A stretch of 64,000 nt of DNA from Erythrobacter sanguineus (lineage in GTDB: Bacteria > Pseudomonadota > Alphaproteobacteria > Sphingomonadales > Sphingomonadaceae), in NCBI GenBank assembly GCA_945878845.1, contig CAMCUB010000005.1:62001-126000 (forward strand). The letters run 5' to 3'. The notes under the pieces were generated by a model. The model did not search any database. It was not told where the DNA came from and saw only the letters and a list, made by a program, of their open reading frames with translations. Shown here piece by piece: positions 2,120 through 36,916 of this stretch. The number at the start of each line of letters is the position of its first letter. Positions within the stretch are counted from its first letter, which is position 1. The translations under genes and the position numbers were made by a program.

Positions 2120-2139
2120 CCGTTCCGAGGGGACCAAGC

Positions 2140-5018: not shown

Positions 5019-5127
5019 GTGCGCCTCGCTAGCACCCCGCGAAAGACGGGGCAATTCGCTCTGGCATCGGGGACGGTTTTGGGTATGGTGCCTGCTTGGG
5101 GGCGATCTATCCGCGAGGGGGGGATAG

Positions 5128-7665
5128 GTGGGCGAGATTTTCAAAGTGGCGATCATCGGATCGGGTCCGGCCGGGCTCAGCGCTGCTGCGCGCGCTGCGG
5201 CGCTGGGGCTGAGCCACGTGCTGCTCGAGAAGACCGACCACCTCTCGGACACAATCTACAAGTACCAGAAGGGCAAGCACGTCATGGCGACGCCCAGCAA
5301 TCTGGTGCTGCGCTCCGACATCGATTTCGACGCGGGCAAGCGCGAGACGATCCTCGGTATCTGGGACGAGCAGATCGGCGGCCACAAGGTCAATGTGAAG
5401 TACCACGCCGAAGCCAAGGCGATCCGCGGCACGGGCGAGGCGATTGCCGGCTCGGTGCAGCAGATCGTCACCCGCGCGCGCGACGGGACGAAGAACGTCA
5501 AGGAACTCCAGCGCCACGCCCCGCCCTATGCCATCGAGCTGACGAGCGGCGAAGTGGTGATGGCCGAGAACGTCGTCCTCGCCATCGGCACTCAGGGCAA
5601 CCCCAACCTGATGCGCTGCCCGGGCGCCGACCTGCCGCATGTGCAGTACCAGCTCGACGATCCCACCGAATATGTCGACGAGCATATCATCATCGTCGGT
5701 ACGGGCGATGCAGGGATCGAGAACGCGCGCGGCCTTGCCGAAGACCCGGCGCAGCGCAACACCGTATCGATCCTCAACCGCGGCACCGAATTCCCGACCG
5801 CCAAGGCCGCCAATGTCAGCGCGCTGATGGCCGATCACGAGGCGGGCAAGCTCACCGTTCGCAACGAGAGCGAGACCAAGGCGATCGAGCCGGGCTGGAT
5901 CACGCTCACCACCCGTGATGGCGAAATCCGCATCCCCTGTGACCGGATCATCGCGCGCATCGGCTCGGCCCCGCCGCGCGCTTTCGTGGAGGAATGCGGG
6001 ATCGCCTTCACCAGCGAGGACCGCGGCGCCTTCCCGCGCCTCAGCCCGGTGTTCGAATCGACCGCACCCGGCATCTTCGTGATCGGCGCTCTGGCGGGTT
6101 ATCCGCTGATCAAGCACTGCATGAACCAGGGCCACGACGTCATCGAGTTCATCAACGGCAACACCGCACTGAAGCCCGCCGACGAGCCGATCATCGCAGC
6201 GAAGTTCGCGAACCTTCCCGGTAATCGCTCGACCGAGGATTGGCTCGAATTCCTGCGCGCCAATGTCTCGATCCTCAATGGCATGAACCCGCTCCAGATG
6301 CGCGAATTCATGCTCGATTCCGAGGCGAAGTTCTACGCGCCGGGCGAGGTGATCTTCGAGCGTAACGCGCCCGGATCATCGCTGTTCGGGATCGCCAGCG
6401 GGTCGGTCGCGGTGGAGGTCAATCCGGCCGACCCCTCGATCACAATCCCCATCGAAGCCGGATCGATCTTCGGCGAGGTCGGCCTGATCTCGGGCCGCCG
6501 CCGCGGCGCGACGATCCGCGCGGCGGAAGACACCATCGTGGTCGAGATCTCGCGCCTCGCCGCGCTGAAGCTGCAATCGCAGGTGCCGTCGGCCAAGACC
6601 GCGATCCAGCGCATCTCGATCGAGCGACAATTGCTCCAGATGTTCGGTTCCGGCCTCACTCCCAAGGACATCGCCCCGCTCGTGGAAGCGGCGAAGGTCG
6701 AGGAAAAGCGCGCAGGTGAGGTGGTGATTGCCGAAGGCGCGGACGACAAGGACGTCTTCATCATCCGCCGCGGCTCGATGGTCGTCGAAAAGGAGATGGG
6801 CGGGCGCCCGGTGTTCTTGTCCTACCTCCCCGCCGGGAGCTATTTCGGCGAGATGGCAGTGATCGACGGGAGCGCGCGCACCGCCACAGTCAAGGCCGCG
6901 ATAAAGTCCGAAGTGATCCGCCTGCCGGCCGAGGGCTTCCTCGCACTGCTCGCCCAGAAGCCCGCCGTGCGCGAGCGGGCCTTGAAGGACATGGCTGGCA
7001 GACGCGCCACCAACGCCTTCATCGAGAGCCGCAAGAGCGAATTTTTCAGCGCGGTCGATCTCTATTCGCAGACCGCGCAATTCCTCGTCGACAACGGCAT
7101 CGGCGAGGCGACCGACGTGCTGCTGATCGACGAGAAGCTGTGCATCGGCTGCGACAATTGCGAGAAGGCCTGCGCCGACAGTCACGACGGCCTCTCGCGC
7201 CTCGACCGGGAAGCGGGCAAGACCTATGCGCACCTCCACGTGCCGACTTCGTGCCGCCACTGCGAGCATCCGCATTGCATGTCCGATTGCCCGCCCAACG
7301 CGATCAAGCGCGGCCCCGATGGCGAGGTGTTCATCGACGAGACCTGCATCGGCTGCGGCAATTGCCAGCGCAACTGCCCCTATGGCGTGATCCGCATGGA
7401 CGCCAAGCCGCCCAAGAAGCCGAGCCTCCTCCAGTGGATGCTGTTCGGCAAGGGCCCCGGCCCGGGCGAGGCCTCCTATTCGTGGCGCAAGAAGGCGGCC
7501 GAGAAAGAGGGCGGGCAGAAGGCCAAGCAGGCGATCAAGTGCGATATGTGCTCAGGGATCGACGGCGGCCCCGCCTGCGTGCGCGCCTGCCCCACCGGCG
7601 CGGCGATCCGCGTCAGCCCCGACAAGTTCCTGACCTTCGCCAAGCTCACCGAGGATATCGAGTGA
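5128..7665 (+). CDS. FAD/NAD reductase fused to two cNMP-binding domains and a 4x[4Fe-4S] ferredoxin domain
   Basis: This is an unusual multidomain cytosolic redox protein of 845 residues with a GTG start (GAGGGGGGG upstream). Residues 1-350 are a two-dinucleotide-binding flavoprotein: FAD motif GSGPAG near residue 11 and NAD motif VGTGDAG near 190. Two cyclic-nucleotide-binding domains follow, with phosphate-binding cassettes FGEVGLISGRRRGATIRA (from residue 448) and FGEMAVIDGSARTATVKA (from 573). Both keep the Glu and Arg expected to bind cAMP or cGMP. The C-terminal quarter has four Cys clusters at about residues 672, 709, 740 and 805, as in DmsB/NrfC/PhsB four-cluster subunits. It is predicted to pass electrons from NAD(P)H to the membrane protein encoded next, which overlaps it by one base, under cyclic-nucleotide control. 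Confidence 0.9.
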   Translation: MGEIFKVAIIGSGPAGLSAAARAAALGLSHVLLEKTDHLSDTIYKYQKGKHVMATPSNLVLRSDIDFDAGKRETILGIWDEQIGGHKVNVKYHAEAKAIRGTGEAIAGSVQQIVTRARDGTKNVKELQRHAPPYAIELTSGEVVMAENVVLAIGTQGNPNLMRCPGADLPHVQYQLDDPTEYVDEHIIIVGTGDAGIENARGLAEDPAQRNTVSILNRGTEFPTAKAANVSALMADHEAGKLTVRNESETKAIEPGWITLTTRDGEIRIPCDRIIARIGSAPPRAFVEECGIAFTSEDRGAFPRLSPVFESTAPGIFVIGALAGYPLIKHCMNQGHDVIEFINGNTALKPADEPIIAAKFANLPGNRSTEDWLEFLRANVSILNGMNPLQMREFMLDSEAKFYAPGEVIFERNAPGSSLFGIASGSVAVEVNPADPSITIPIEAGSIFGEVGLISGRRRGATIRAAEDTIVVEISRLAALKLQSQVPSAKTAIQRISIERQLLQMFGSGLTPKDIAPLVEAAKVEEKRAGEVVIAEGADDKDVFIIRRGSMVVEKEMGGRPVFLSYLPAGSYFGEMAVIDGSARTATVKAAIKSEVIRLPAEGFLALLAQKPAVRERALKDMAGRRATNAFIESRKSEFFSAVDLYSQTAQFLVDNGIGEATDVLLIDEKLCIGCDNCEKACADSHDGLSRLDREAGKTYAHLHVPTSCRHCEHPHCMSDCPPNAIKRGPDGEVFIDETCIGCGNCQRNCPYGVIRMDAKPPKKPSLLQWMLFGKGPGPGEASYSWRKKAAEKEGGQKAKQAIKCDMCSGIDGGPACVRACPTGAAIRVSPDKFLTFAKLTEDIE

Positions 7666-8555
7666 TGGCGACCAAGGCAGCGGGTAATGCAAGGGCCAAG
7701 ACGGGCGGCACGGGGCGCTTTTCGCAGGACGAGCGGCGGCGCGACAGCGACCATGTGAGCTTCCTGAAACACAAGGGTTTCCGCTGGCTGTGGATCGCGC
7801 TGCTGCTTTCGGCTGCGAGCATCGCGGGCTATCTGCTGATCGATCAGGAGCCCCGGCCCAATGGCGGGACGTGGTATGGCTATACGCTCGGCACCATCGG
7901 CTTCGGGCTGATCCTGTGGCTCTCACTGCTGGGGGTGAGGAAGCGGCGCATCAATCCGGGGGCGTGGAGCCTAAAGGCGTGGACCTCGGCCCACGTCTAT
8001 CTCGGCCTTGCGCTTACCGTGGTGGGGACGCTCCACACCAGCTTCCAGATCGGCTGGAACGTCCACACGCTCGCCTATGTGCTGATGCTGCTGGTGATCG
8101 CGACCGGGATTTACGGGGTGATCGTCTACGCCACCCTGCCCGCGAGCCTGTCGGCCAACCGCAAGGAGATGACCCGCGCGCAAATGCTCGACGCGCTCAC
8201 CGCGCTCGACCGCCAGCTTGAGAGCGCCGCGCAGCCGCTGGCGCGCGCTGAGTCCGATCTCGTTATCGCAGCATTGGGGCAAGACGTGTTCTACGGCGGC
8301 GCGCTGGCGCGGCTGACCGGGAGCTACCCCGGCTGCAAGACCGCGCGCGCATTGAAGGGCATGGGCACCGGCTCCGAGGCCGAGGCGCGCGTCACCGCCC
8401 TGCTCGAGAAACGCCGCGAACAGCTCACCCAGATCCGCGGAGCCTTGCGCATCCGCGCAATGCTGGAGATCTGGCTGTTCATCCACATTCCGCTCACTGT
8501 CGCCCTGATCGCCGCGCTCACCGCGCATGTGATCAGCGTGTTCTACTATTGGTGA
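7665..8555 (+). CDS. Predicted diheme cytochrome b-like membrane protein
   Basis: This is an integral membrane protein of 296 residues. The ATG overlaps the TGA of the Fe-S flavoprotein gene by one base, which fixes the start even though the frame is open further upstream. Predicted helices lie at about 41-59, 71-91, 107-124, 135-155 and 266-291. His110/His124 and His274/His288 give two HX13H pairs, each within one helix; this is the classic bis-histidine arrangement for two b hemes stacked across a membrane, as in bc1-type cytochromes b and ferric reductases. His134 is an extra candidate. A soluble loop of about 110 residues separates helices 4 and 5. It is predicted to carry electrons from the cytosolic Fe-S protein across the membrane to the decaheme protein encoded 10 bp downstream. 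No family name was recognised. Confidence 0.8.
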   Translation: MATKAAGNARAKTGGTGRFSQDERRRDSDHVSFLKHKGFRWLWIALLLSAASIAGYLLIDQEPRPNGGTWYGYTLGTIGFGLILWLSLLGVRKRRINPGAWSLKAWTSAHVYLGLALTVVGTLHTSFQIGWNVHTLAYVLMLLVIATGIYGVIVYATLPASLSANRKEMTRAQMLDALTALDRQLESAAQPLARAESDLVIAALGQDVFYGGALARLTGSYPGCKTARALKGMGTGSEAEARVTALLEKRREQLTQIRGALRIRAMLEIWLFIHIPLTVALIAALTAHVISVFYYW

Positions 8556-8565
8556 GGGCGGGCCG

Positions 8566-10374
8566 ATGGCGTTCCTGATCCGCACCATCGACTTCACCGC
8601 CGCCGGGCGCGAGATCGTCCGCGACCGGGTGCTCGATCAGACCCGCCTCACGGTGGGCCGCGCTGCCGAGAACGACATCCACCTGCCCGACCTTGCGGTG
8701 GAGCAACGCCACGTCGGGATCGACTTGGCGGCTGACGGCACGCTGGCGGTGGCGGCGCTTGGCACGCTCGGCTTCGGGCTCGACGGGCGGGTGGTGACTG
8801 AAGGCGTGATCGACCCGCGCACCGGCGGCGAGGTGGCGCTCGGCGCGGCGCGCCTCGCGGTGACGCGCGAGGAGGATGGCAACATCGCCATCACCATCCG
8901 CCAGGTGGTCGCCGACGAGGGCAAGATCGACGCCCTGCGCGGCTTCGCGCTCGCCTCCAAGCTGCCCGGCAAGCGCACGATGAGCTGGATCTTTGCCTCC
9001 GCGATCATCTTGTTGCTGCTCGCCCTGCCGGTTGCGAGTCATCTGCTGCGCACCCCGGCCAAACCCGATCCCACCGGCAAGACCCCGGGCGCGGTGCTGA
9101 TGGACAGCGCGTGGACGAGCGGAGAGCTGTCGCTGAAGCACCACGACCTCGCCGACAATTGCGAGAGCTGCCACGTCGCCGCCTTCGAGTCTGTGCAGGA
9201 CGAGACCTGCCTGTCGTGCCACAAGGACATCGGCGATCATGCGCAAAAGCCGCGCCTCGCCAAGGGGATGCCGCCGCTGTCGGAGGGCGACGCGCTGCAA
9301 TGGAAGATCGCGCAAGGCTTCGGCAAGGAAGGCCCTCTCGGCTGCGTCGCCTGCCATTCCGAGCACGAGGGGCCGGTGCGCACGCAAGCGGGAAGCGAGG
9401 CCTTCTGCGGCGATTGCCACAAGGATCTGGACGCCCGCCTCACCGACACGGCGCTCACCGATGCGCATGATTTCGGCAAGACCCACCCGCAGTTCCGCCC
9501 GCTTTATTTCGCCAGCTTCGGCGCGGCGAAGCCCGTGCGCGCGGCGGCGGGGAGCGTGCCGGTCGAGCGTTCGGGTCTCGTCTTCCCGCACGACGTCCAC
9601 ATGAACCCGCGCGGCGGCGCGGCGCGGATGGCGGTCAGCCTCGCGCAATATCGCAGCCCGCTCGAATGCAAGGACTGTCACGCGCCGACCGCCGACAAGG
9701 TCACCTTCAAGCCGGTCGAGATGGAGCAGGCCTGCGAGGCGTGCCACTCCCTCGTCTCAGGCCGCACGGCAGGCGGCGGTTTCGGCAAGCTTCGCCACGG
9801 CAGCGTGAAGAACCTTGCCGAGGATCTTGCACGGATCACCTCCGGCCCGCGCCCCGCGCTCGCGCCCGGTCGCCAGCGCCCGGGGCAGATCGGCAGCGCC
9901 GCGCCCGCCTACCGCGCCGATTTCGGCCGCCCGGTGCGCTCCTATATCGGCTTCTCCAACGCGCTCACGGCAGGCGGGGTGTGCACCGAATGCCACCTGC
10001 CCACCACCGGACCGACCGGGCAGGCCGACCTCATGCCGGTCAACTTCCCCGACCGCTTCCTCACCAGCGGCTATTTCAGCCACGCCGCGCACACCAAGCA
10101 GAAATGCACCGATTGCCACGCGGCCGACACCTCCAAGGCGGCGAGCGACCTCTTGATGCCCGACCTCAAGAGCTGCCGCGACTGCCACCTCGGGGCGAGC
10201 GCGGTGAAGACCGCGAAGATCGTGCCCAGCGACTGCGCGATGTGCCATGCCTATCACGTGCCGGCTGGCCAGTGGCAGGGCCTGAAGCCGCCCAAGGGCC
10301 CGCCTCCGCATTACAAGCCGCCGCCCCCTGACAAATCAAAGGTTGCGGCCAAGCTCGCACAAGCTAGACCATAG
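8566..10374 (+). CDS. FHA domain-TM-decaheme cytochrome c
   Basis: This is a 602-residue membrane-anchored multiheme cytochrome. Residues ~20-95 resemble a forkhead-associated (phosphothreonine-binding) domain, with TVGRAAENDIHLPDLAVEQRH fitting the GR...ND..L....VS..H pattern (Gln where the usual Ser sits). A single transmembrane helix at about 139-160 follows. The remainder contains ten CXXCH heme motifs (CESCH, CLSCH, CVACH, CGDCH, CKDCH, CEACH, CTECH, CTDCH, CRDCH, CAMCH) from residue 199 onward, with many additional histidines. The topology implies a cytosolic FHA domain and a periplasmic decaheme domain. The C-terminus is proline/lysine-rich. It should receive electrons from the cytochrome b-like protein upstream. 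The cytosolic FHA domain suggests regulation or docking by a phosphoprotein. Confidence 0.9.
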   Translation: MAFLIRTIDFTAAGREIVRDRVLDQTRLTVGRAAENDIHLPDLAVEQRHVGIDLAADGTLAVAALGTLGFGLDGRVVTEGVIDPRTGGEVALGAARLAVTREEDGNIAITIRQVVADEGKIDALRGFALASKLPGKRTMSWIFASAIILLLLALPVASHLLRTPAKPDPTGKTPGAVLMDSAWTSGELSLKHHDLADNCESCHVAAFESVQDETCLSCHKDIGDHAQKPRLAKGMPPLSEGDALQWKIAQGFGKEGPLGCVACHSEHEGPVRTQAGSEAFCGDCHKDLDARLTDTALTDAHDFGKTHPQFRPLYFASFGAAKPVRAAAGSVPVERSGLVFPHDVHMNPRGGAARMAVSLAQYRSPLECKDCHAPTADKVTFKPVEMEQACEACHSLVSGRTAGGGFGKLRHGSVKNLAEDLARITSGPRPALAPGRQRPGQIGSAAPAYRADFGRPVRSYIGFSNALTAGGVCTECHLPTTGPTGQADLMPVNFPDRFLTSGYFSHAAHTKQKCTDCHAADTSKAASDLLMPDLKSCRDCHLGASAVKTAKIVPSDCAMCHAYHVPAGQWQGLKPPKGPPPHYKPPPPDKSKVAAKLAQARP

Positions 10375-10393
10375 CAATGGGCGGGGGCGTTTC

Positions 10394-11263
10394 ATGACGG
10401 GCCGGGCGGTGCTGATCGCGCAGATGACCGATATTCATATCGGCTTCGCCCCCGATGAAAAGCCCGAGGAGCTGAACCTCACCCGCTTCCGCGCCACCTT
10501 GCAGCGGCTGATCGAGGGGCCCAACCGCCCCGATTTCCTCGTGCTGACCGGCGACATCACCGATCACGGCGATGCGGAAAGCTTCGCCAAGACCATCGAG
10601 ATCCTGCACGCCTGCCCGATCCCGATCCTGCCAATGGTCGGCAATCACGACAGCCGCGAGGGCCTGCTCGGCGCCTTCCCCGGGGTTGAGCCGGCAGACG
10701 GTGGCTTCCTCCACTATGTCGTCGATGCCGGGCTGGGCCTCAGAGTGATCTGCCTCGACACGCTCGAGGAGGGCCGCCACGGCGGAGCCTTCTGCGCGGC
10801 GCGCGCGCACTGGCTGGCGGAGCGGCTGGCCGAGGCACCCGATACGCCGACGCTGATCTTCATGCACCACCCCCCGGTCGTCGCCGGGATCGATTGGATG
10901 GACCCCGCGCCGGACGAAGACTGGATCACCCGCTTCGGCGCGGTGCTGGAAGGCCAGCATCAGGTGCAGGCGATCCATTGCGGGCATCTCCACCGCCAGA
11001 TCACCACCAGCTTTGCCGGGATACCGCTGGGCGTGACGCCCTCGGTCGCGCCGCTGGTGGCGATGGATCTCAACCCGATCGACAAGGACATGCCCGACGA
11101 TCGCGAGCTCATCACCACCGAGCCGCCGACCTACGCGCTCCACCGCTGGGACGGGGCAAACCTTGTCTCGCACTACGAGCGGGTCGGGGACTGGCAGGTG
11201 CTGGCGCGCTTCCATGCGGGCCTCCAGCCGATGATCGAGGGCATGTTCGCGGAAAGGGAGTAG
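10394..11263 (+). CDS. CpdA-like class III cyclic-nucleotide phosphodiesterase
   Basis: This is a calcineurin-like metallophosphoesterase of 289 residues. The dimetal motifs are in order: DIHIGF near the N-terminus, GDITDHGD, GNHD, HHPP and CGHLHR. This set and length match the CpdA/GpdQ group, whose bacterial members hydrolyse 3',5'-cAMP. The start at 10394 (MTGRAVLIAQ) is preferred over upstream codons because it directly precedes the first catalytic strand. It lies 19 bp after the FHA-decaheme gene on the same strand and is therefore probably in the same transcript as the protein with two cNMP-binding domains. It would lower cAMP seen by that reductase. Glycerophosphodiesters are an alternative substrate. 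Confidence 0.85.
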   Translation: MTGRAVLIAQMTDIHIGFAPDEKPEELNLTRFRATLQRLIEGPNRPDFLVLTGDITDHGDAESFAKTIEILHACPIPILPMVGNHDSREGLLGAFPGVEPADGGFLHYVVDAGLGLRVICLDTLEEGRHGGAFCAARAHWLAERLAEAPDTPTLIFMHHPPVVAGIDWMDPAPDEDWITRFGAVLEGQHQVQAIHCGHLHRQITTSFAGIPLGVTPSVAPLVAMDLNPIDKDMPDDRELITTEPPTYALHRWDGANLVSHYERVGDWQVLARFHAGLQPMIEGMFAERE

Positions 11264-11272
11264 CTCACCTCC

Positions 11273-11376
11273 TCGTCATTGCGAGCGAAGCGAAGCAACC
11301 CATGGACTGACGACGCGCCAAGGCAAGACGGCGGTCGATGGATTGCCGCGTCGCCTTCGGCTCCTCGCAATGACGA
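11273..11376. repeat. Intergenic palindromic repeat between converging operons
   Basis: Thirteen-base arms TCGTCATTGCGAG (11273-11285) and CTCGCAATGACGA (11364-11376) form a perfect inverted repeat enclosing about 78 bp. The flanks of the arms also partly pair (CGAAGCGAAG with CTTCGGCT). The element fills the gap between two operons that converge here and could fold into a long hairpin acting as a bidirectional terminator. From memory, similar CGTCATTGCGAGCGAAGCGAAG elements are dispersed in sphingomonad genomes; that recollection was not checked. Confidence 0.7.
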
Positions 11377-11385
11377 AGTGAGGCT

Positions 11386-14300
11386 CTACTTCCGCGCGCT
11401 CGCCCGTTGCGCGCCCACCGGGGCCAGCCCGACCCAGCGCTTCATGTCGACCTCGTCCGTCACCTTCCACGGCACGCCGCTGCGGGTCATGAACATCCGC
11501 TCCATCTCTTCGCGGGTGAAGGGACGCGAGCCCAAGCGACCGAACACCGCCATCTGCCCGCCGGTCTCGTCCACCGCGCGGTCGCGGTCGAGGCCCTTGG
11601 ACATGGCGATCGCGGGCGTCGGTGTCTTCGCCCAGGCGATCAACTCCGGCATCGGCGCCGGGCTGAAGCCGTAGAAGCCGCGCTGGCTTTCAGGGCTGGT
11701 GAGTTGCAGCACCTTCACCCCGTTCTTCCCGTCCGCCACGTAAGCGAACAGCGAGGCATTGGTGGTGCCGACGATCACGTCCTCGGCATCGTTCAATGTC
11801 CCGTCGAGCGTGACCCGCTGATAGACTTTCGGAGCACGCGGGTTGGTGACGTTGAGGATTACGAGCCCGTCGCCCTTGGCCGCGACATAGGCATAGGTGC
11901 GCGCGATATACACGCGGCGCGCGTCGGCCAGCGGCACCGTTCCTTCGGGCACCGCGACCGGGTCGCGCAAGCTGGTGATGTCGAACAGCTTCACGCCCTC
12001 GGCATCAGTCACCCACAGGTAGCGGAACTGCACCGCGCTCGCCCGCGCATCGCGAAGCTCGCGCACCGCGGCGAGCTTGGGCGCGGCTGGATCGGAGAGG
12101 TCGACCACCACCAGACCCTTGGCCGCAGTGATATAGGCGATCTCGCCCGCCAGCGTGATGTGCTGCGCGCCGGTGAGCACCCCGCCCGGGTTCCATGCCG
12201 TCGAACCATCGGCATAGACCTTGCGGGTGAGCTTGTTGTTGCGGAATTCGCCGTCCGCCAGCGTGTTGACGTTGACGAGGATCAGGCCCTCCACCGCGTC
12301 GGTGACGGCGGCGTAGTTGTAGATCGGCTTGAACGCCTGTTCCTGATTGGCGCTGCGCATCGCCTCGGTGTTGCGGGTCGGCGCGATCGGCTGGTTGGTA
12401 GCGAGCGCCATGCAGGTCGCGTTGGTGGTCTTGACCGTGGTGTCATGGCCCAGCCCCGAGAACGGCCCCTTGAGGATCCGCTCCGAGGTGCCCTTGTTGG
12501 CGATGCTGGCGACGTCATAGGCGACAAACCCGCCCTTGCCTTCGGCCACGAACATATATTCGCCGCGCAGTTGCAGGCAGCCGACGCGGCCCGGCGTGCC
12601 TTCGTGGACATTGGCGAATTCCTCGAAGGGATGGGTCTCGCCGCTGAGCTTTTCGTCGAAGGTCTTGCCGCGAGTCCAGTTCTTCAGCTCGCGCCCGTTC
12701 TGCTCGACATGGAGCTTCCAGTAATCGGGATAGGCATAGCGCTGGAGGTAGGAGCCGATCACCGCTTGCGGCTCGTCATATTCGGTCACCCGCGTCGCCT
12801 GGAACCCGCCTTCCAGCCCGCTCCAAGCATTGAGCCCGACGAAGTTGACGTAATTTGTGCCGAGCAGGAAGAGCTGCGCCATGATCGCATTGTTGTCCTC
12901 CTTGGCGGAGAGGTGGCAATCGGTGCAGGTCTTGGTCTCGGTCAGGCGCACGGTGTGCGGGAAGTGCGGCGCGAAGGCCTGGCTGGAGAAGCCGATGGCG
13001 CTGATCGGCGGCTGCTGCACATAGATCCGCTCGCGGTTGATATTGGTCGAGGACAATACCAGCGCCGAGGACGACCGGACCGGCGTAATCTGGCTGCCCT
13101 TGGTGGTCATGCCCTTGCCCAGCTGGAACATCTCGTCACGCGCGACCTGCGGGTTGTAGGTCGCGAAGTTCCTCGTCTCGCCGCCCTCATAGCGGTGGAC
13201 GGGGGTCTTCCAGTTGGCCTCGATCGGCAAGTGGCACCCGCCGCACGAGGTCGTCCAGGACAGGTGGCAGGTGAAGCACGCCATCTCCGGCTCGCGGTGC
13301 GCGCGGTCGGGTTCGGATATGCCGGTGCCGAATTCGAAATTGCCGGTCTCCGCGCCGTAGCGGCTGACGAGCTTCGCCCGCGCCGCCTTGGCGTTGAACG
13401 CCGGGGTGGCGGGATCGACCGAGTCCTTGACGAGGCTCATCTCCCATTCAAGCTTCGGGTCGATGATCGAGCGCTGGATCAGCCTTTGCCTGCCGTCCGG
13501 ACCCTCGAGCCATTCGAAGCGGCGCTTGCCGTCGGGGTTGCGCAGCAGGGCGAGGTTGTGGCCCTCCGGAGGCGCGGCGGGGCCGCTGGTGCGCAAGGTG
13601 GGATAGGCGTCAGCCGTGCCGTGGCAGTCCTTGCAGGTGATCTCGATCGCATTGGCGACCTCGCCATAGATGAGGCCGTTGCCGTGGCTGTCCTGCTCGA
13701 AGTGGCAATCGGCGCACTGCATCCCCTTTTCGGCGTGGATGTCCATCAGGTGGACCCCCTTGCCGGGGTTGACGCCGGGGGGCACGAACTTTCCTTCGCC
13801 TTCGCGCCGCCATTTCTCGGGATCGTCGGGATCGACGATCGCGCCATCGGCATCGAGCAGATTGCCCTCGCGGTCGCGCTTGAAGATCGCGCGGAAGTTC
13901 CAACCGTGGCCGTGATAGTCGGCGAACTGGGTGTCCTTGAGCTCAGGGTTGAGGTCATAGACGTTGCGCAGGAAATCGAGGTCGGCCCAGTTGCCCTTGG
14001 GCGCGGCGCCTTCGGGGTTGCGGTCGGTGATCGCGCGGACTTCGGCGGCGGTGGGGTATTTCTGCTCCTTGGGCCACATGAAGGGCGCGTCGGACTCGTA
14101 GTCCCACATGGTGTAGCCGAGGAACGAATTCAGGAAGATATTGGGCTGATGCATGTGGCAGTTCATGCACTGGCTGGTCGGGATCGCGCGGGTGAAGACG
14201 TGCTGGAGCGGGTGGCCGCTTTCCTTGACCTCTCCGCTGGCGGTGCGCAGCGCGCCGTCATCGAGGTGGTGGTCGTCCTCGCCCTCACCCGGCTGCTTCA

Positions 14301-15507
14301 CCCCGCCGTGGCCGCCGGGCTTCGTCCCGCCATGCCCATCGTCATAGCCCGCCGCGTGGGCGATCTTTTCGGCGATGGTCGGATCGACGGTGATGCTCTG
14401 CCCGTCGCGCCCATATTGCGCATAGGTGAGCGAATGGCGCGGCTCGCGGTCATTGGCATAGACCACGTGGCAGGACGCGCAGCCCGAGTGGCGGTAGTCG
14501 CCCGGCTGGTCGTTGGTGCCCATGAACCACGTAAAGGGATCGTTGAGGCGGGTCTTGTGGATGTTGAGCGCCGGGATCGCGACCCGCAGACCCGTGCCGG
14601 GGCCGCGGTTTGATTGCTTCAAGTCGGGCCGCCCGGGCTCTTCAAGGCGCTGGATCGAGCCCGAGGGGTTGGGCAGGCCGATCTCCGGGAACTGCGAGTT
14701 GATCGTGCGCCCGCCGCGCTCGAACACGCGGAACACGTCGCCCGGCGGGATCACGTGCCAGGTGGGGAGCGGATACATCTCGGCGAGCACACCGCGCGCG
14801 ACCTGATCCTCGGAAAGCTTGCCCCCCGGCCCCGCGCCCGGCGTGGTCATCTTGGCGGGCAAGCCCTCGCGCGTATAGGCCTCACCCAGCAGGTAGTTCT
14901 TGAACGGCAGGATCCCGTTATTGTAGCTCGCCCCGCCCCACAGCATCGCGCCGGTCGCCATGATCGAGCGCTCGGCGCTCTCGATTGCCTGAATATGGCA
15001 CGCCCCGCAGGCATCGCGAGCGACGCGGTAATCGGACGGGTTGATGAACTTCACGAACTCCGGCGATTCCTGATTGAGCAGCGCATAGGAGCGCTTGGGG
15101 TTCGCCGAGGAGGGGAAGTGCCAGGACTTGGGATACTTGGGCAGCACGTGGGCGGCATCGCGCGCGGCGACGTAGTCGGGGTGATCGTGCGGCAGCTCGG
15201 AATTGCCGCGCACGCTGACATTGCCGCCGTGGCAATCGGTGCAGCCGAGCCGCACTGCGGGCGAGACGTGCATGGTCGGCGCGTCGGTCTTGACGTGGCA
15301 GGTGAGGCAGCCTTCGGACTTGCCTTCCATCTCCGCCACCGATTGCCGCTGCGGCGCAGGCGGCGCGATCACGAGGCTGTAGTCGCGCTTGACCGGCTTT
15401 TCCTTGTCGGACGCCATCGGGCTGCCCGCAAACAGTGACACAGCCAGCACCAGCGCTGCGGCAATCAGCGCAAGGTGGCGGGCGAAAGGCTGGGTGAGCG
15501 CGCGCAT
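11386..15507 (-). CDS. Large secreted decaheme cytochrome c with C-terminal LVIVD repeats
   Basis: This is a predicted periplasmic or surface protein of 1,373 residues. The start MRALTQPFAR (15507) gives a clean signal peptide; its ATG overlaps the TGA of the barrel gene by one base. Ten CXXCH motifs are present: CLTCH, CTDCH, CGACH, CASCH, CMNCH, CADCH, CKDCH, CFTCH, CGGCH and a final CTDCH. The last ~400 residues carry LVIVD-type repeats such as AYITAAKGLVVVDLSDPAAP and AYVAAKGDGLVILNVTNPRA, which form a beta-propeller-like fold. Immediate coupling to an outer-membrane beta-barrel gene suggests the two work together at the outer membrane, as in porin-cytochrome conduits. The electron acceptor is unknown. 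Confidence 0.9.
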   Translation of the reverse strand: MRALTQPFARHLALIAAALVLAVSLFAGSPMASDKEKPVKRDYSLVIAPPAPQRQSVAEMEGKSEGCLTCHVKTDAPTMHVSPAVRLGCTDCHGGNVSVRGNSELPHDHPDYVAARDAAHVLPKYPKSWHFPSSANPKRSYALLNQESPEFVKFINPSDYRVARDACGACHIQAIESAERSIMATGAMLWGGASYNNGILPFKNYLLGEAYTREGLPAKMTTPGAGPGGKLSEDQVARGVLAEMYPLPTWHVIPPGDVFRVFERGGRTINSQFPEIGLPNPSGSIQRLEEPGRPDLKQSNRGPGTGLRVAIPALNIHKTRLNDPFTWFMGTNDQPGDYRHSGCASCHVVYANDREPRHSLTYAQYGRDGQSITVDPTIAEKIAHAAGYDDGHGGTKPGGHGGVKQPGEGEDDHHLDDGALRTASGEVKESGHPLQHVFTRAIPTSQCMNCHMHQPNIFLNSFLGYTMWDYESDAPFMWPKEQKYPTAAEVRAITDRNPEGAAPKGNWADLDFLRNVYDLNPELKDTQFADYHGHGWNFRAIFKRDREGNLLDADGAIVDPDDPEKWRREGEGKFVPPGVNPGKGVHLMDIHAEKGMQCADCHFEQDSHGNGLIYGEVANAIEITCKDCHGTADAYPTLRTSGPAAPPEGHNLALLRNPDGKRRFEWLEGPDGRQRLIQRSIIDPKLEWEMSLVKDSVDPATPAFNAKAARAKLVSRYGAETGNFEFGTGISEPDRAHREPEMACFTCHLSWTTSCGGCHLPIEANWKTPVHRYEGGETRNFATYNPQVARDEMFQLGKGMTTKGSQITPVRSSSALVLSSTNINRERIYVQQPPISAIGFSSQAFAPHFPHTVRLTETKTCTDCHLSAKEDNNAIMAQLFLLGTNYVNFVGLNAWSGLEGGFQATRVTEYDEPQAVIGSYLQRYAYPDYWKLHVEQNGRELKNWTRGKTFDEKLSGETHPFEEFANVHEGTPGRVGCLQLRGEYMFVAEGKGGFVAYDVASIANKGTSERILKGPFSGLGHDTTVKTTNATCMALATNQPIAPTRNTEAMRSANQEQAFKPIYNYAAVTDAVEGLILVNVNTLADGEFRNNKLTRKVYADGSTAWNPGGVLTGAQHITLAGEIAYITAAKGLVVVDLSDPAAPKLAAVRELRDARASAVQFRYLWVTDAEGVKLFDITSLRDPVAVPEGTVPLADARRVYIARTYAYVAAKGDGLVILNVTNPRAPKVYQRVTLDGTLNDAEDVIVGTTNASLFAYVADGKNGVKVLQLTSPESQRGFYGFSPAPMPELIAWAKTPTPAIAMSKGLDRDRAVDETGGQMAVFGRLGSRPFTREEMERMFMTRSGVPWKVTDEVDMKRWVGLAPVGAQRASARK

Positions 15508-17360
15508 CAGTAGGTCAGCACCACGTTGGCGAGGATCGAGACGAATTCCTGTCCGCCCCCGCGGGAAGTGAACAGGTCCTGGAAGCCGTCGCCTGCCAGC
15601 AACGTTGCAGCCGACAGGCGGAAGACGAGGTTCTGGTTGGCCTTGGGCCGCCAGATCGCCGAGGCCGAGAGGTCGAAGCCGATCTCGCGCGGGATCGAGC
15701 CTTCGTTCCTGAGTACCTGAAGCACCGAGGTGTTCTCGAACCACAGGTGGTTGGCATTGGCGGTGAGGCGAAACTCCGGCGTCAGATCGAAATCCGCGCC
15801 CGCGCCGAGCAGCATCAGGCCGGGGTTGTTGAAATTGCTCTGTCCCTGCTCTTTCGAGGAACGCAGCGAATTGAGCAGGCCGTTGCGCCCGTTGACGCTG
15901 ATGACGCGCCCGCCGCCGGCGAAGGGAATGGTCTGGCGGATCCAGTAGGAGGTGTCCGCGCCCGCGAAGACCGGGTTCTCGAAGATCGCGTCGAACCCGC
16001 CTTCGGTGTCGTCATAGGGGTCCTCGTCCCCGCTGGCATAGGCGGCCGAGAGGCGGAAGCGCATCCAGTCCTTGTCATAGCTCGCTTCCACCGCCGCGAA
16101 CTGCGCGTTGATGTCGGCCGGGCGGTCGGTGAGGAAGGAATTGCGGTCCTCGCCCAGCGCCCAGTAGAAACTGCCCGTCAGGTTCACGCGGCCGATGCGG
16201 CCATCGAGATTGTAGCCGAGATAGACGACGTCGTATTCGCGGCCCCTGAGCGTGCCCAGCAAGGCCGGGCGCACCGGGAAGCCGTTGTCGTCGATCTCGA
16301 TATCATCGGACTCGCGGTTGCGGTTGTAGACCACCGTGATCTGGCTGGTCAGAGCGGGGATCAGGAAATCCTGCCGATAGGCGTTGGCGACGAAGACGAA
16401 ATCGTCGCGCGGGGTCTGGGTGACATCGTTGAGGCCGCTATTGGTGTCCTTCTCCAGCCGCCAGAAGGCGCCCAGATTGAACTGGAAGCGGTTGTTGTCG
16501 CGCGATCCGAACAGGCGCACGCCGAGCTGCTGGTCGTTGAACAGGAAGCCGCGGAAGTCCGACTGGAACGGCTGGATCCCGGCGCGGATTGAGATGAAGT
16601 CGAACCGGTCATTGTCGAACTGGCTGAAGTGGTAATCGACGAAGGCTTCCTGCACGCCGAGGAAATCGTCCAAGCGGTGCGAGGGGCGCGAGGGTTCGAC
16701 GAACAGCACGCGGCGCTCCGGAACGTCGACATAGTTGATGTTGTAGGCCAGCGTGACGCGGTATTCGATCACCGGCGGCTTGAAGGTGGTGGAGCCCTTG
16801 AGCAGCGCGAAGCCGGCGATGAAGGTCTGGCTGAAGACCTGGCTGAAGTCGTTGCCGAACACGTCGTTGCGGTCCGGGTCTTCGGTGGTCTGGACGCCGA
16901 CCGGGATCGGGAAGGTGCGCGGTTCATACACGCTGTCGGAGATCAGGTTGGCGACGAAGAACCAGTCGTCCTCCTTGATCGGCAGCCACGGCACTTTCGC
17001 GCGGTCGATCGGCCGGTCGCCCTTAAGGGTGTTCTGGTTGTAGGGATCGAGGAGGTTCTCCTTCACGAGGCCCAGGCTCTGGATCAGCCGCCAGCGATCG
17101 GGGATCGGCACCTGCTCGGTCGGGAAGGCCTGCGGGGGCGGGGCGCGCACGGCTCCTGCGTTGTTCTGCTCGATCTTCTCGGGCAACGGCGCGGTGTAGC
17201 CGGGGCGCTCACGGCCCTCGATGATCTGCGGGTCGACGGGAGGAACGTCCTGCTCCCAGTCCTGCGGAGCGGGTGCCTCACCGGGCGGCGCAACGGGAGG
17301 CGTCGCCTCTTCGGGAGGGGCGACCTGAAACAGCAGCAGGGCGGGGAGCAGCGGCGTCAT
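15507..17360 (-). CDS. Outer-membrane beta-barrel protein of the multiheme cluster
   Basis: This is a 617-residue protein with a short N-terminal hydrophobic segment, a proline/glutamate-rich linker (residues ~15-60) and then a long run of amphipathic strands rich in aromatic and acidic residues, ending in VVLTY. The aromatic C-terminus and strand pattern support a large outer-membrane barrel. No CXXCH is present. It sits between a lipoprotein gene, whose stop directly abuts its ATG, and the decaheme LVIVD gene, with which it overlaps. By position it resembles MtrB/PioB-type barrels that sheath a multiheme cytochrome, but sequence similarity to them was not recognised; that role is inference. 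An alternative is a selective porin. Confidence 0.78.
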   Translation of the reverse strand: MTPLLPALLLFQVAPPEEATPPVAPPGEAPAPQDWEQDVPPVDPQIIEGRERPGYTAPLPEKIEQNNAGAVRAPPPQAFPTEQVPIPDRWRLIQSLGLVKENLLDPYNQNTLKGDRPIDRAKVPWLPIKEDDWFFVANLISDSVYEPRTFPIPVGVQTTEDPDRNDVFGNDFSQVFSQTFIAGFALLKGSTTFKPPVIEYRVTLAYNINYVDVPERRVLFVEPSRPSHRLDDFLGVQEAFVDYHFSQFDNDRFDFISIRAGIQPFQSDFRGFLFNDQQLGVRLFGSRDNNRFQFNLGAFWRLEKDTNSGLNDVTQTPRDDFVFVANAYRQDFLIPALTSQITVVYNRNRESDDIEIDDNGFPVRPALLGTLRGREYDVVYLGYNLDGRIGRVNLTGSFYWALGEDRNSFLTDRPADINAQFAAVEASYDKDWMRFRLSAAYASGDEDPYDDTEGGFDAIFENPVFAGADTSYWIRQTIPFAGGGRVISVNGRNGLLNSLRSSKEQGQSNFNNPGLMLLGAGADFDLTPEFRLTANANHLWFENTSVLQVLRNEGSIPREIGFDLSASAIWRPKANQNLVFRLSAATLLAGDGFQDLFTSRGGGQEFVSILANVVLTY

Positions 17361-19316
17361 CTACAGCCCCTGACACACGTTCTGTTCGCTGCTGCCGATG
17401 AACGGCGCGAAGGGGCAATTGACGTAGCGCAGCCGCACCTGACGGCTGCCGACTTGCACCACGATCCGGTCAGCGCGGATCGCAGCGGGCGCATTGCCGA
17501 GGCTGCCCCCGGCGCGCGCGGCGCCGTTGTGGAGGCCGAGGAAGCTGATCATGTCGTCCTGATCGATCCCGTCGCCCGAGACGCCGATGCCGCCGACCAG
17601 CACCCCGCCGCGATAAACGGGGACCGAGCCGGGGAAGATCTGGATGCCGTTCGCCAGCCGCGGCGTGCCGCCTGCGGTGTTGGGGAGGCCCGTGCAGGCG
17701 CGCGGCGTGTCCGTCCCGCTCGCCCCGGTGACGAAGCCGAGGTGCTGCGCAAGGTTGCCCACGATCAGCGCGCTCTGCAGCCCGGTCGAGAAAGGGCTGA
17801 ACTGCTGGATTGGGCGCGAGAACGGCCCGTTGGGCTGGCCCACCTCGCCATCGGGGAAATAGGGCCGCGAGAGGTTGCCGTGGGCGCGGTCGGACAAGGC
17901 GAAGCCGCCGGTCAGCGCGGTGGGATCGCCGAGGAAGGTCCGCAGCCGGGTGACGAATTGCGGCACCTCGCCCGCCGTGGCGGAAAGCTCGGCGGCGGCG
18001 AAGCTGCCGGAGAAGAAGTTGGCGGTGCGCGCCTTCTGCAAGCTCACGTCGATCCCGAAGATCGGCGCATCGGGCGAGCGCACCAGCCCGAGCACAGCCC
18101 CCCGCGTGTCGACCAAGCTGATCGTCACTTGCGCGCGGCTGTCCAATGGCTGGCGGATCTGCGCCCGCGCGTTGCTCATGACGGCGAAAGCTTCCTCGAG
18201 GATCACGCGCGCTTCGGCGGCGGTCAGCGGCGCGGCGACATCGCCTGCATCCGTCCCGCCGCGCACCGGATAGCGGTTCGCGCCTGCGCCGTTGGAGAGC
18301 ACAAAGGCATCGCGGTTGGCGAACTCCGCCGGGGTCGAGGCGCGCACGCCCGACGTCTCGGTGCCGTAGGTCGCGCCTGCGAGCAGGCCTGCGCCGGTGT
18401 AGTAGCCCGTCACCGGCACCAGCGCACCCGCGGTCGCGGCGAAGCTTGCGCCCGCAACCGCGCTTAGCTGCGGGTATTCGATATCGGTGTAGCGCAGGCT
18501 CGTACCGTCGGCAGTGATGCGGTCGGCGCGGATGCTGACCGGGGCTTCGAAGCCTACGGTGCCCGCAAGCGCAATCGCCTCGTCGACATCGGTGTCGCGG
18601 TCGAGGACATTGGGGTCGAAGCCGTAGGTCCCGTCAGCGATCACCCCGATCCCGCCGACGACCACGCCGTTCTGGTAGAGCGGGAAGCCGCCGGGGTCAG
18701 CCGCCAGGCCGAGCGGCGAGCGCTTGGGGCCGATCAACCCATCACTCGCCCGCGCGGCGAGGTCGGAGCAGGGGAGCTGGCTGAACTGCACCCCGAACAG
18801 CGGGCCGCTTTCGAGCCCCACGGTGGTCGGCGCAGGGGGGAAGTGCTCCTGAACGATGAAGCTCGCAGTGCGGCTTGAGAAGGCGTTACCGCCGCTCGAC
18901 AGGTACGCGCCGGTGATTGCCTTGGCGATCGCGGCGCCTGCCGAGGGGATGGTGAGGCCCTGCGCATCGCGGCTGGTGCCGTCGGACGCGGCCGGGATGC
19001 GCGCGGTCGTCGCCGCGCCGGGCATGGCGAACACGCCAAGCACATTGCCGACCCGGTCGGTCACCGCGATGGTCGCGGACACGCCTCGCCCGCGCGCCTC
19101 GGCAGCGGCCTGCGCGATGATCGTGCCGACCTCGGCGCTCGACAGACTTTCAGCGGCGGGGACAGAGAACACCTGCCCGGCAGGCGGCGGAGTGGGCGTG
19201 GGCGTCGGCCCCGTCCCGCCGGTCGCGCCGCCATTGCTCGAAGGTCCGCCGCCCCCGCAGGAGGCGAGCACCAGCGCGCTCGCGGCCAGCCAGAAGGTGG
19301 TGGTCCCCCCGCGCAT
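17361..19316 (-). CDS. Lipoprotein with two GlcG/HbpS-like domains
   Basis: This is a 651-residue predicted lipoprotein (lipobox LASC, followed by a Gly/Ser/Thr/Pro linker). Two homologous halves each show the GlcG/HbpS heme-binding family pattern: an early helix after a segment such as SLSSAEVGTIIAQAAAEA or PLTAAEARVILEEAFAVM, a strand DRVGNVLGVF or DTRGAVLGLV, and a late VGGIGV motif (VVVGGIGVIADG and VLVGGIGVSGDG). Family members bind heme or small organic acids. The duplication and the position between cytochrome and barrel genes suggest heme handling or an accessory electron-transfer role in the envelope. The stop lies immediately before the barrel ATG. Confidence 0.82.
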   Translation of the reverse strand: MRGGTTTFWLAASALVLASCGGGGPSSNGGATGGTGPTPTPTPPPAGQVFSVPAAESLSSAEVGTIIAQAAAEARGRGVSATIAVTDRVGNVLGVFAMPGAATTARIPAASDGTSRDAQGLTIPSAGAAIAKAITGAYLSSGGNAFSSRTASFIVQEHFPPAPTTVGLESGPLFGVQFSQLPCSDLAARASDGLIGPKRSPLGLAADPGGFPLYQNGVVVGGIGVIADGTYGFDPNVLDRDTDVDEAIALAGTVGFEAPVSIRADRITADGTSLRYTDIEYPQLSAVAGASFAATAGALVPVTGYYTGAGLLAGATYGTETSGVRASTPAEFANRDAFVLSNGAGANRYPVRGGTDAGDVAAPLTAAEARVILEEAFAVMSNARAQIRQPLDSRAQVTISLVDTRGAVLGLVRSPDAPIFGIDVSLQKARTANFFSGSFAAAELSATAGEVPQFVTRLRTFLGDPTALTGGFALSDRAHGNLSRPYFPDGEVGQPNGPFSRPIQQFSPFSTGLQSALIVGNLAQHLGFVTGASGTDTPRACTGLPNTAGGTPRLANGIQIFPGSVPVYRGGVLVGGIGVSGDGIDQDDMISFLGLHNGAARAGGSLGNAPAAIRADRIVVQVGSRQVRLRYVNCPFAPFIGSSEQNVCQGL

Positions 19317-19318
19317 CG

Positions 19319-20728
19319 CTATTTCAGTCGCCCAATCGCGCCCGCCGCCGCCTTCAATGCGGCGCGGAAATCGGCCGGGCGGTAGGCATTGGGCTCCTCG
19401 ACCGCCTTGTAGGCCCGCGCGATATCGCCGCGAATGCCGGCCGCCGCGCCTTGCGTCACCCGGCCCTCTCTGACGAGGGCATTGAGCAGCGTGTCCACCG
19501 CCATCACCGCCTGCACCGATCCGGCATAGTCGGTGAAGCGCGGGGCGGTCGCCTCACCGGCGATGATCGCAATGACCTTGAAGGCGTCGGCATCAGCATA
19601 GGCACGCGCCGAGAGCGCTTCGGACAGCGCCGCAGCGCGGGTTGCGAGCGTCTGCGCCGCGCCCAGCGCCTCGGGCGGGCCCGAGCCAAACGCCTTGTGG
19701 AAGTCGCGCGCGGCCGCCTGGAACTTCGCCGCCTCGCCCGGCACCAGCGCGCCTGCGACCGCCGAGAGCATGATCATGTTCTCGTCATTGAAGGGCGGGT
19801 TGCCGAAGGGGATCGGGCGCCCCGGATTGGTCTCGAAGGTGAGCTTCCTCTGCGGGCCATCGCTGATCGTGCGGTGGCAGGAATGGCAATCGAGGAAGTA
19901 GAACTGCGGGAATGCGCCCTCGTAACCGATCTTGGGCTGGGCGAAGAGGCTGGTCGAGCGGCGCACCGCTTCAGCCTGCCCGACCGCCCAGAAGCGCACC
20001 GAACTGGGCGAGCCCTTGCGCGCGACATAATCGCCGTCGATCTGGTGGTGCTGCTGCAAGGCGCTGAACAGGTCGAGCTCGAAGGACACGCGCGGGTGGC
20101 CCGCGGCCATCATGGCATGGGTGACGAACTGGCCGGGCTTGTTCGAGCCGTAATGGCAATCGAGGCACACGTTGGCGCGCGCCTTGGGATTGTCGAGCGG
20201 GGTGAGCCCTGCGGCGATGTTGGAGGCGTGGGTGGCGGGCAGCGCGTAGTGCTCGGCAAGCCAGGTGCCTCCGGAAGCGCCGTGGCAGCTCTCGCACCCG
20301 ACCCCGTCGGTCAGCGTGAACTTCGCGCCGCGCGCGCCAGCGGGCGCGTTGGTCGCATGGCAGCCGAGGCAGGCGGGCGCGCTCTGGGCGTTTCCGAGCC
20401 CGAGGCTCGCGGCGATCTGCTGACCCCTGCGGCCGCCGAGTACGACATAGGCGCGGCTGTGCGCGCCCGAGGGTGAGGAAGGCTCCTGCCAGGTCGCGAT
20501 CTCGTCCTGCCGGACCACCGCGCCATTGCCCTCGGCGCGGCCATGGCAGGTCGATCCGGCGCAAGTCGCCACGCCCTCGAAGGTTCCTCCGCCGAGCGCG
20601 GTCGAGACCGGATAGACCGCGACCAGCGCCAGCACTGCGGCGAGGCGCGCAAGCAGGCGCCGCGAGGGGGCCGGTGCCGCCCCAAGCGCCGCAAACCCGC
20701 CGATCAGATCCGCCAGAATTCGTCTCAT
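19319..20728 (-). CDS. Pentaheme c554-like cytochrome c
   Basis: This is a 469-residue protein with an N-terminal hydrophobic segment at about residues 24-45 (uncleaved anchor or signal peptide). It has heme motifs CLGCH, CESCH, CLDCH and CHSCH, plus one atypical CX4CH motif (CAGSTCH) near the N-terminus, making five probable hemes. The arrangement, with a CX4CHG motif first and a helical C-terminal half of ~200 residues lacking Cys, resembles the cytochrome c554-like multiheme family. It is the first gene of the minus-strand operon pentaheme-GlcG-barrel-decaheme (gaps 2, 0 and -1 bp) and would be a periplasmic electron shuttle. The upstream 203 bp (20729-20931) should hold its promoter; no clear -35/-10 was recognised. 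Confidence 0.87.
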   Translation of the reverse strand: MRRILADLIGGFAALGAAPAPSRRLLARLAAVLALVAVYPVSTALGGGTFEGVATCAGSTCHGRAEGNGAVVRQDEIATWQEPSSPSGAHSRAYVVLGGRRGQQIAASLGLGNAQSAPACLGCHATNAPAGARGAKFTLTDGVGCESCHGASGGTWLAEHYALPATHASNIAAGLTPLDNPKARANVCLDCHYGSNKPGQFVTHAMMAAGHPRVSFELDLFSALQQHHQIDGDYVARKGSPSSVRFWAVGQAEAVRRSTSLFAQPKIGYEGAFPQFYFLDCHSCHRTISDGPQRKLTFETNPGRPIPFGNPPFNDENMIMLSAVAGALVPGEAAKFQAAARDFHKAFGSGPPEALGAAQTLATRAAALSEALSARAYADADAFKVIAIIAGEATAPRFTDYAGSVQAVMAVDTLLNALVREGRVTQGAAAGIRGDIARAYKAVEEPNAYRPADFRAALKAAAGAIGRLK

Positions 20729-20931
20729 CCCATCCCCCCCGAGATGCGCGTTACCCGGTCCAACCAGCCCTTGCAGGGCAATCAGCCGCGCCCCCGCGCG
20801 ATGACTGCCGCTTCATGCAAAGGTTTCGTGGCGCACCGCGTCCCGATTCCCCCGTCAGGCCGACCCCTTCGCCCTTCTCCCAAGCTTGGGGCCGCGATGC
20901 AACAGGCAATCATCAGGCGCCGCGCGCCAGC

Positions 20932-23731: not shown

Positions 23732-23752
23732 TACCCCCGCCCCCGGCTGCGC

Positions 23753-26830: not shown

Positions 26831-26831
26831 G

Positions 26832-34988: not shown

Positions 34989-34989
34989 C

Positions 34990-36813: not shown

Positions 36814-36916
36814 CAAGGTCCCCCCCAAAACTTCAATGACCCGGCCCCCGTCCGCCCGCCGCCCTTGCAGCGGGCCGCGCACGAAGCCCGGACCCTCAAA
36901 TACACGCACGCCGACC

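Follow-up and report, generated by a model that had tools for sequence, protein, structure and literature searches.

A conserved and widespread seven-gene multiheme cytochrome system of Proteobacteria, probably a trans-envelope electron conduit

Results and Discussion

A seven-gene electron-transfer system in Erythrobacter sanguineus

The stretch of DNA analysed here (hereafter the window) comprises 64,000 nucleotides of Erythrobacter sanguineus, contig CAMCUB010000005.1, and carries between positions 5128 and 20728 a set of seven genes that belong together as one electron-transfer system, whose parts span the envelope; it is tightly conserved, occurs widely and has apparently not been characterised so far. 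It probably serves as a porin-cytochrome conduit that takes electrons across the envelope, linking cytosolic NAD(P)H with the cell surface, for which we infer the transport itself, the order of the carriers and the gating. The genes lie in two convergent runs, in each of which the intergenic gaps are -1 to 19 bases. They are listed here in the order of transcription of each run, the plus-strand run closing with a phosphodiesterase-like gene.

5128 to 7665, plus strand: FAD/NAD(P) oxidoreductase (FAD protein), 845 residues, with two cyclic-nucleotide (cNMP)-binding domains and a 16-cysteine (4x[4Fe-4S]) ferredoxin region (PF00027 in two stretches, PF13738/PF07992, PF13247)
7665 to 8555, plus strand: predicted inner-membrane diheme cytochrome b (IMP), 296 residues, with the motif WX3HX13H twice
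8566 to 10374, plus strand: FHA10, 602 residues, with an FHA/YscD-like N-terminal domain, a transmembrane stretch (residues 139-157) and a decaheme region (PF16697, FHA, PF14522/PF14537)
10394 to 11263, plus strand: metallophosphoesterase, cyclic-nucleotide phosphodiesterase-like (PF00149, 61.7 bits; NCBIfam SpdA, 133 bits, below the cut-off of 400)
20728 to 19319, minus strand: secreted pentaheme, cytochrome c554-like (PF13435, 45.1 bits)
19316 to 17361, minus strand: lipoprotein with tandem HbpS/GlcG domains (GlcG2; PF03928, 73.7 bits, 3 stretches; LASC lipobox recognised by eye)
17360 to 15507, minus strand: outer-membrane beta-barrel, 617 residues, about 18 strands in a structure model
15507 to 11386, minus strand: LVIVD10, 1373 residues, a decaheme with a signal peptide and a C-terminal LVIVD domain (PF08309, 57.4 bits)

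All the reading frames named in a previous sequence-only reading of this DNA were recovered, and motif and Pfam evidence agrees with its predicted diheme cytochrome b, its double GlcG-like lipoprotein and its CcmI-like neighbour. The phosphodiesterase-like gene, the two cNMP domains of the FAD protein and the FHA/YscD-like domain of FHA10 are parts beyond its list. IMP starts at 7665, a longer open frame from 7140 overlapping the FAD gene, and LVIVD10 starts at 15507, its start overlapping the stop of the barrel gene; the longer frame open above this start overlaps the barrel gene itself. No sigma-70-like promoter was found in 4900-21800, which says little here, and Rfam gave no match in the window. 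The best-matching named proteins are from Erythrobacter/Porphyrobacter.

The set encodes 25 c-type heme motifs in all (24 CXXCH and one CX4CH): ten CXXCH in FHA10, ten in LVIVD10, and four plus the single CX4CH in the pentaheme. Across the 64 kb, the CXXCH DNA pattern matches 29 times against 3.1 expected from shuffles, none of the 100 shuffles reaching 29. Within 9160-10248, 12913-15449 and 19874-20371 lie 25 of the 29 matches, one of which (15435-15449) is out of frame. The earlier figure of about 25 c-type hemes is thus borne out, far above chance. A CCP_MauG probe search of the genome gave no match.

Conservation was counted over the sequences that passed score and length filters, the window sequence being included in each total. 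The 16 cysteines of the FAD protein and the arginines 459 and 584 of its cNMP domains are present in 76 of 76 sequences, Glu450 in 75 and Glu575 in 59. The residues W106, H110 and H124, and again W270, H274 and H288, of IMP are invariant (85/85); in its (S/T)GxxG motif, position 147 is serine in 82 sequences and threonine in 3, among them that of the window, while G148 and G151 are found in all 85. Four stretches of the window IMP exceed a Kyte-Doolittle hydropathy threshold, a simple threshold rather than a transmembrane predictor. For FHA10, PF14522/PF14537 score above their cut-offs; the other two matches are weaker, PF16697 reaching 24.4 bits where its cut-off is 33.2, and FHA 14.5. The heme-binding Cys/Cys/His positions of nine of its motifs are kept in 87 of 87 sequences and those of one in 86, the exact CXXCH count being nine in four loci (L160, L168, L173, L175). 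The ten heme motifs of LVIVD10 are found in 116 of 116 sequences, and its mean column identity over 13 family sequences is 64%. In the pentaheme, the four CXXCH are present in 86 of 86 and the CX4CH in 85. Beyond the motifs, exactly ten further histidines are conserved in FHA10, exactly five in the pentaheme and 13 in LVIVD10 (in more than 95% of sequences), enough for bis-histidine ligation of all 25 hemes; the exact ten and five would be consistent with FHA10 and the pentaheme acting as all-bis-histidine wires.

Co-inheritance in the family and reach beyond it

LVIVD10 was found in 40 of the 100 genomes of a first search (its own genome included), all 40 within the genus, and in 94 of 249 genomes drawn from the family Sphingomonadaceae. 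Such a system had been called unexpected in an aerobic sphingomonad; at this frequency it is, on the contrary, common. The IMP profile gave 94 matches in a family draw of 249, that is, 93 strong ones and one (G167; 37 model positions, E 7e-4) that was excluded. The two draws have equal size and equal genus and quality tallies, and hold the same genomes wherever these are listed, 135 negatives being unlisted in both. A strong IMP match is present in 93 of the 94 LVIVD10 genomes and in none of the 155 others (raw counts, kinship ignored), and the single LVIVD10 genome without one (G121) is 67% complete. The starts of the two genes are less than 15 kb apart in 45 genomes; in 20 they share a contig at a greater distance, and in 28 they are on separate contigs, some of these splits being due to draft assembly. 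As strong IMP matches track LVIVD10 even where the genes are more than 15 kb apart or split (48 of 93), the seven genes are one system.

We read 20 of the 94 family loci. The pentaheme, GlcG2, the barrel and LVIVD10 occur together in all 20, and the FAD, IMP and FHA10 genes share that locus in 12, the outermost gene being sometimes cut by the locus end; in a 13th (L062) FHA10 stands at the end. The barrel adjoins a multiheme gene in all 20, and of 96 further loci, truncated contigs included, 94 hold it together with LVIVD10. Phototrophy was rejected as a partner of the system. The E. sanguineus genome, of 3.2 Mb in 57 contigs, carries a photosynthetic reaction centre, and among the 61 genus genomes with both searches (G938 and G939, in which LVIVD10 was not searched, having been dropped) LVIVD10 is present in 32 of 48 with Photo_RC and in 8 of 13 without (Fisher test, p = 0.75).

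Beyond the family, LVIVD10 was found in 11 of 398 genomes of the phylum (E <= 1e-20), the barrel in 15 of 240 of the class, and IMP in 17 of 378 of the phylum (E <= 0.001), three of these matches being weak. Scanning viral contigs with the barrel brought up no relative. A scan of named-species genomes with two short peptide patterns gave at least 594 stretches, at least 593 of which encode a relative; as one gene may count twice, the figure stands for hundreds of genomes and not for exactly 593. Hosts among the matches listed include Cognaticolwellia, Thalassotalea, Parahaliea, Haliea, Steroidobacter, Duganella, Nitrosomonas sp., Dokdonella, Tahibacter, Rheinheimera and Oceanibacterium.

The best 80 of these relatives and 16 other loci make up the 96 loci outside the family (L101-L196), many of which are cut by contig or locus ends; at least four pairs with identical scores look like the same record. 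They hold LVIVD10 in 96, the barrel in 94, GlcG2 in 84, the FAD gene in 76, FHA10 in 75, IMP in 72 and the pentaheme in 68, and all but the pentaheme stand together in 70. A lack of co-occurrence elsewhere had been set beforehand as refuting the sequence-only reading; these 70 loci and the 93 family genomes show strong co-occurrence, and the reading is not refuted on this count. The order FAD-IMP-FHA10-GlcG2-barrel-LVIVD10-pentaheme on one strand is seen in 35 loci, the same order with no pentaheme in the locus in 22 and with the pentaheme reversed in 8, the other 31 being partial or reordered. A single operon being thus usual elsewhere, the two-run layout of the sphingomonads looks like a rearrangement. 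The LVIVD10 tree (FastTree, midpoint root, read by eye) roughly tracks taxonomy.

Two observations concern the surroundings of these genes. A small protein without a Pfam match is encoded at L184:5648-6283 and in 17 other loci, mostly between FHA10 and GlcG2 in alphaproteobacterial operons. The weak IMP matches (G347, G367, G625) lead to L222, which has no multiheme gene, and to other decaheme and IMP pairs at L220:6921-10251 and L221:7054-10053, weakly similar to the present IMP and without a match to this barrel model; L221 also holds an FNR-type 2Fe-2S flavoprotein and two 4-heme cytochromes.

Comparison with known systems

The closest published layout is that of PCC4. The IMPs of PCC3 and PCC4 carry the motif WX3HX13H twice, a pair proposed to hold two b hemes, and He et al. 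(2017) modelled both as electron uptake systems (PMC5566968). Our set resembles PCC4 in combining a porin, periplasmic multiheme cytochromes and an IMP with SGXXG and two WX3HX13H motifs. The PCC4 IMP is described with five predicted transmembrane helices; in the window IMP, four stretches pass the hydropathy threshold. It also resembles PCC4 subgroup II, in which a PF13247 Fe-S gene lies upstream of the IMP gene; here PF13247 (43.1 bits, cut-off 26.2) lies directly upstream. In contrast, the PCC4 cytochromes have 4, 5 and 10 hemes against 4(+1), 10 and 10 here, and the accessible part of that text, which allows a comparison by description only, makes no mention of cNMP domains, an FHA anchor, an LVIVD domain or an HbpS lipoprotein. 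Membership in PCC3 was rejected, as that system is described with 22-39 residues per heme, dozens of hemes per cytochrome and mostly a very large porin (PMC5566968), whereas here there are 60, 94 and 137 residues per heme and a barrel of about 18 strands.

A 2026 study of metagenome-assembled genomes from ghost rock describes a "first group" of 11 clusters in which a large decaheme gene (4-5 kbp) lies beside a porin of around 20 strands, with a ferredoxin-NADP+ reductase nearby in 7 of the 11 (PMC13264449). This group is probably the present system, matched by description rather than by sequence; the accessible part of the study leaves it unnamed and does not describe IMP, the FHA decaheme, the pentaheme, the HbpS protein or the cNMP domains. 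The earlier claim that the conduit is undescribed calls for a qualification: no description of the seven genes as a full set was found in the open literature (titles and starts of abstracts, subscription journals being outside the scope), but the IMP motif and PCC4 layout (PMC5566968) and the grouping of large decaheme, porin and reductase (PMC13264449) are published. Nothing on the system was found in the accessible part of PMC9226611 or, by term look-up, in that of PMC4245776.

Like MtrCAB, MtoAB and PioAB, the set pairs a barrel with multiheme cytochromes, probably across the outer membrane. It differs from them, as the sequence-only reading had proposed for MtrCAB and PioAB, in its cytochromes, in having an NAD(P)-type flavoprotein and a cytochrome b rather than a CymA-type quinol cytochrome, and in its barrel, which has no Pfam match up to E 0.1, MtrB_PioB (PF11854) included. 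No MtrB_PioB was found in the genome at E 0.001, in a search where 1 of 14 control genomes matched, below cut-off, so that a strong positive control was lacking. For FHA10 the DmsE-family model, which covers MtrA, gives 21.8 bits against 192. The Geobacter extABCD and extHIJKL conduits are similar in their outer-membrane proteins, for which 18 (ExtB), 21 (ExtE) and 21 (ExtI) strands are predicted, and extHIJKL has a non-heme lipoprotein (a rhodanese) in place of a surface cytochrome, to which the HbpS/GlcG lipoprotein may be analogous (PMC6148476). The likeness to ExtA-L is by description; the NCBIfam ExtM, ExtN and ExtO models gave sub-cut-off matches only.

A probable conduit and its alternatives

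In the conduit, the FAD protein would take electrons from NAD(P)H in the cytosol or, in the opposite direction, pass them to NAD(P)+. From this protein they would move through four [4Fe-4S] clusters to the two-heme-b IMP and on to periplasmic FHA10, which its FHA-headed anchor would tether to the inner membrane. The way to the outer membrane would lead through the pentaheme and LVIVD10, the latter making up, with the barrel and the HbpS lipoprotein, a terminal module that would face an electron acceptor or donor outside the cell. The two cNMP-binding domains on the cytosolic subunit would probably gate the flow. A complete route from cytosol to surface had been proposed before. The co-inheritance of the set and the presence of a part for every envelope layer support such a route, but not a sheath of the MtrA-in-MtrB type, the barrel being modelled as AlgE/OprD-like with about 18 strands.

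Several observations weigh against a conduit. The barrel model is nearest to AlgE/OprD, and no cytochrome porin is among the 50 matches shown in either barrel fold-match list; the absence of MtrB from them excludes nothing, as AlgE/OprD entries fill both. LVIVD10 lacks a lipobox, so that its surface exposure is a prediction, and the model of its heme domain is poor (mean predicted local distance difference test score, pLDDT, 50.7). The phosphothreonine residues of the FHA domain drift (Arg in 63 of 87, Ser in 6 of 87), which makes the domain a weak candidate for a general phosphothreonine reader. Faint PDB matches link FHA10, over 77 residues, to hydroxylamine oxidoreductase (E 0.0017) and the pentaheme to 6i5b, an "uncharacterized protein" (E 0.0007); both are short heme-motif stretches and are not built upon. 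GlcG2 is absent between FHA10 and the barrel in L136, L160 and L168, so the HbpS lipoprotein can be missing. Four genomes (G346, G378, G494, G495) have a strong IMP and are not among the phylum matches of LVIVD10, whose draw is not listed as to whether it held all four. In G346 the contig runs out after FHA10 and in G495 after GlcG2, before any barrel could show. In G378 and G494 the FAD protein is fused with IMP and accompanied by a 9-CXXCH FHA10, with no outer-module gene in the 20 kb read; such fused FAD/Fe-S-IMP frames of about 1120 codons lie at L218:3046-6420 and L219:6843-10202, next to a 9-CXXCH FHA10 and with no barrel or LVIVD10 match in the 20 kb read. The inner half can thus probably occur alone. 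Nor was a measurement on any member found in the open literature covered.

The occurrence of inner modules without the outer one, with the faint enzyme match, led us to give less weight to the conduit and more to a system for a soluble substrate, which we still consider unlikely. The barrel would then be an ordinary channel for anions or organic acids. In the periplasm LVIVD10 would act on the entering substrate as a multiheme reductase or oxidase, fed or drained by FAD-IMP-FHA10, with no electrons crossing the outer membrane. The fold and strand number of the barrel, the missing lipobox and the resemblance of FHA10 to hydroxylamine oxidoreductase would all suit this, and LVIVD10, highly conserved and with 13 rather than 10 further histidines, is more enzyme-like than wire-like. 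However, the cytochromes fall below the cut-offs of the HAO and NrfA models and of all other nitrogen and sulphur enzyme models, and the second test set beforehand, whether they match a known system of that kind, does not refute the sequence-only reading either. LVIVD10 alone has no PDB match up to E 1, and its profile finds no solved relative other than ribosomal L4 matches (E 0.07 or worse) taken as chance. Predicted proteins of 18-21 strands also occur in the Geobacter conduits (PMC6148476). Still less probable, indeed improbable, is a metalloid (tellurite or selenite) or heme/iron reductase at the cell surface. Erythrobacter relatives reduce tellurite, the set includes an HbpS-like lipoprotein, and the best NCBIfam match of LVIVD10 is ExtM (NF040943), a "selenite/tellurite reduction operon c-type cytochrome"; yet this match reaches 64.3 bits against a cut-off of 800, with a best stretch of 52 residues, and LVIVD10 was rejected as a member of that family.

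The conduit itself might also run inward, a variant rather than the opposite of our reading and one that we regard as possible but doubtful. Electrons from Fe(II), Mn(II), reduced humics or solid donors would then reach the quinone pool or NAD(P)+, as modelled for PCC3/PCC4, with which the IMP motif is shared; one relative comes from a metagenome-assembled genome titled Biocath_Gamma_022 (Haliea), presumably biocathode-derived. Against this, phototrophy shows no link in the genus, and an NAD(P)-type flavoprotein suits export at least equally. The named hosts are mostly heterotrophs. This, together with the NAD(P)-type flavoprotein at the end of the chain, leads us to favour slightly the outward, reductive direction for the conduit.

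Were the conduit confirmed, trans-envelope electron transfer would be routine in hundreds of species considered ordinary aerobes, rather than a speciality of metal respirers, and would be wired directly to NAD(P)H, not to quinol via a CymA-type cytochrome. The gene set is defined tightly enough for deletion tests in named isolates, of which Steroidobacter agaridevorans SA29-B (L152), Thalassotalea sp. ND16A (L123) and Duganella radicis KCTC 22382 (L187) hold all seven.

Regulation and signalling neighbours

Cyclic-nucleotide gating is plausible given the cNMP domains and the phosphodiesterase-like, PP2C and FHA neighbours. Solved relatives of the FAD protein include the PKA/PKG regulatory domains. 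Of the 20 family loci, 12 share with the window the phosphodiesterase-like gene next to FHA10; this gene has a match in only 1 of the 96 loci outside the family. In 26 of those 96, among L125-L171, a PP2C phosphatase gene comes next after the pentaheme or one gene farther on, and in 20 of the 26 an FHA-domain protein lies beside it; a Ser/Thr kinase match is found in four loci. Judging from these domains, cAMP or cGMP probably gates the conduit. As a more tentative picture, one might speculate on a second-messenger-gated export wire common in aerobic Proteobacteria, in which cAMP or cGMP on the flavoprotein would open a path of 25 c hemes and 2 b hemes from NAD(P)H to the surface, the operon being extended by a PP2C and FHA-protein pair in some Gammaproteobacteria and by a phosphodiesterase gene in Sphingomonadaceae. 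It would then, as far as the literature examined shows, be the first conduit of electrons to carry its own cyclic-nucleotide switch.

The CHASE2-guanylate/adenylate cyclase gene near the pentaheme (21665-23731) was considered as a dedicated cAMP source, and we do not claim it as such, since few loci match (14 of 125 scanned, 4 of the 14 below 70 bits) and it has other neighbours. It may belong with the adjacent CHAT protein and two-partner-secretion genes.

Other genes of the window

The divergent neighbour of the FAD gene is a putative cytochrome c maturation gene:

4068 to 5018, minus strand: TPR protein, CcmI/CycH-like (PF23914 TPR_CcmH_CycH, 55.4 bits, cut-off 42)

Next to the FAD gene it is also seen in 7 of 20 loci of the family, the others ending at or in the FAD gene or not holding it. 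Upstream of it (116-4059) lie genes for a TonB-receptor-like barrel, a SurE-like protein and a tyrosine phosphatase. On the other side, a two-partner-secretion region occupies 20932-36909 on the minus strand. It encodes a very large, repetitive filamentous-haemagglutinin-like protein (26832-35198, recognised by eye), a ShlB-type transporter (34990-36909), a CHAT-TPR protein (23753-26899), the CHASE2 cyclase and, in the frame 20932-21717, a smaller protein without a Pfam match. Farther along, a GH68 levansucrase/invertase gene (52771-53865) is accompanied by a ROK-family gene, a TonB receptor and an MFS transporter (51902-57916).

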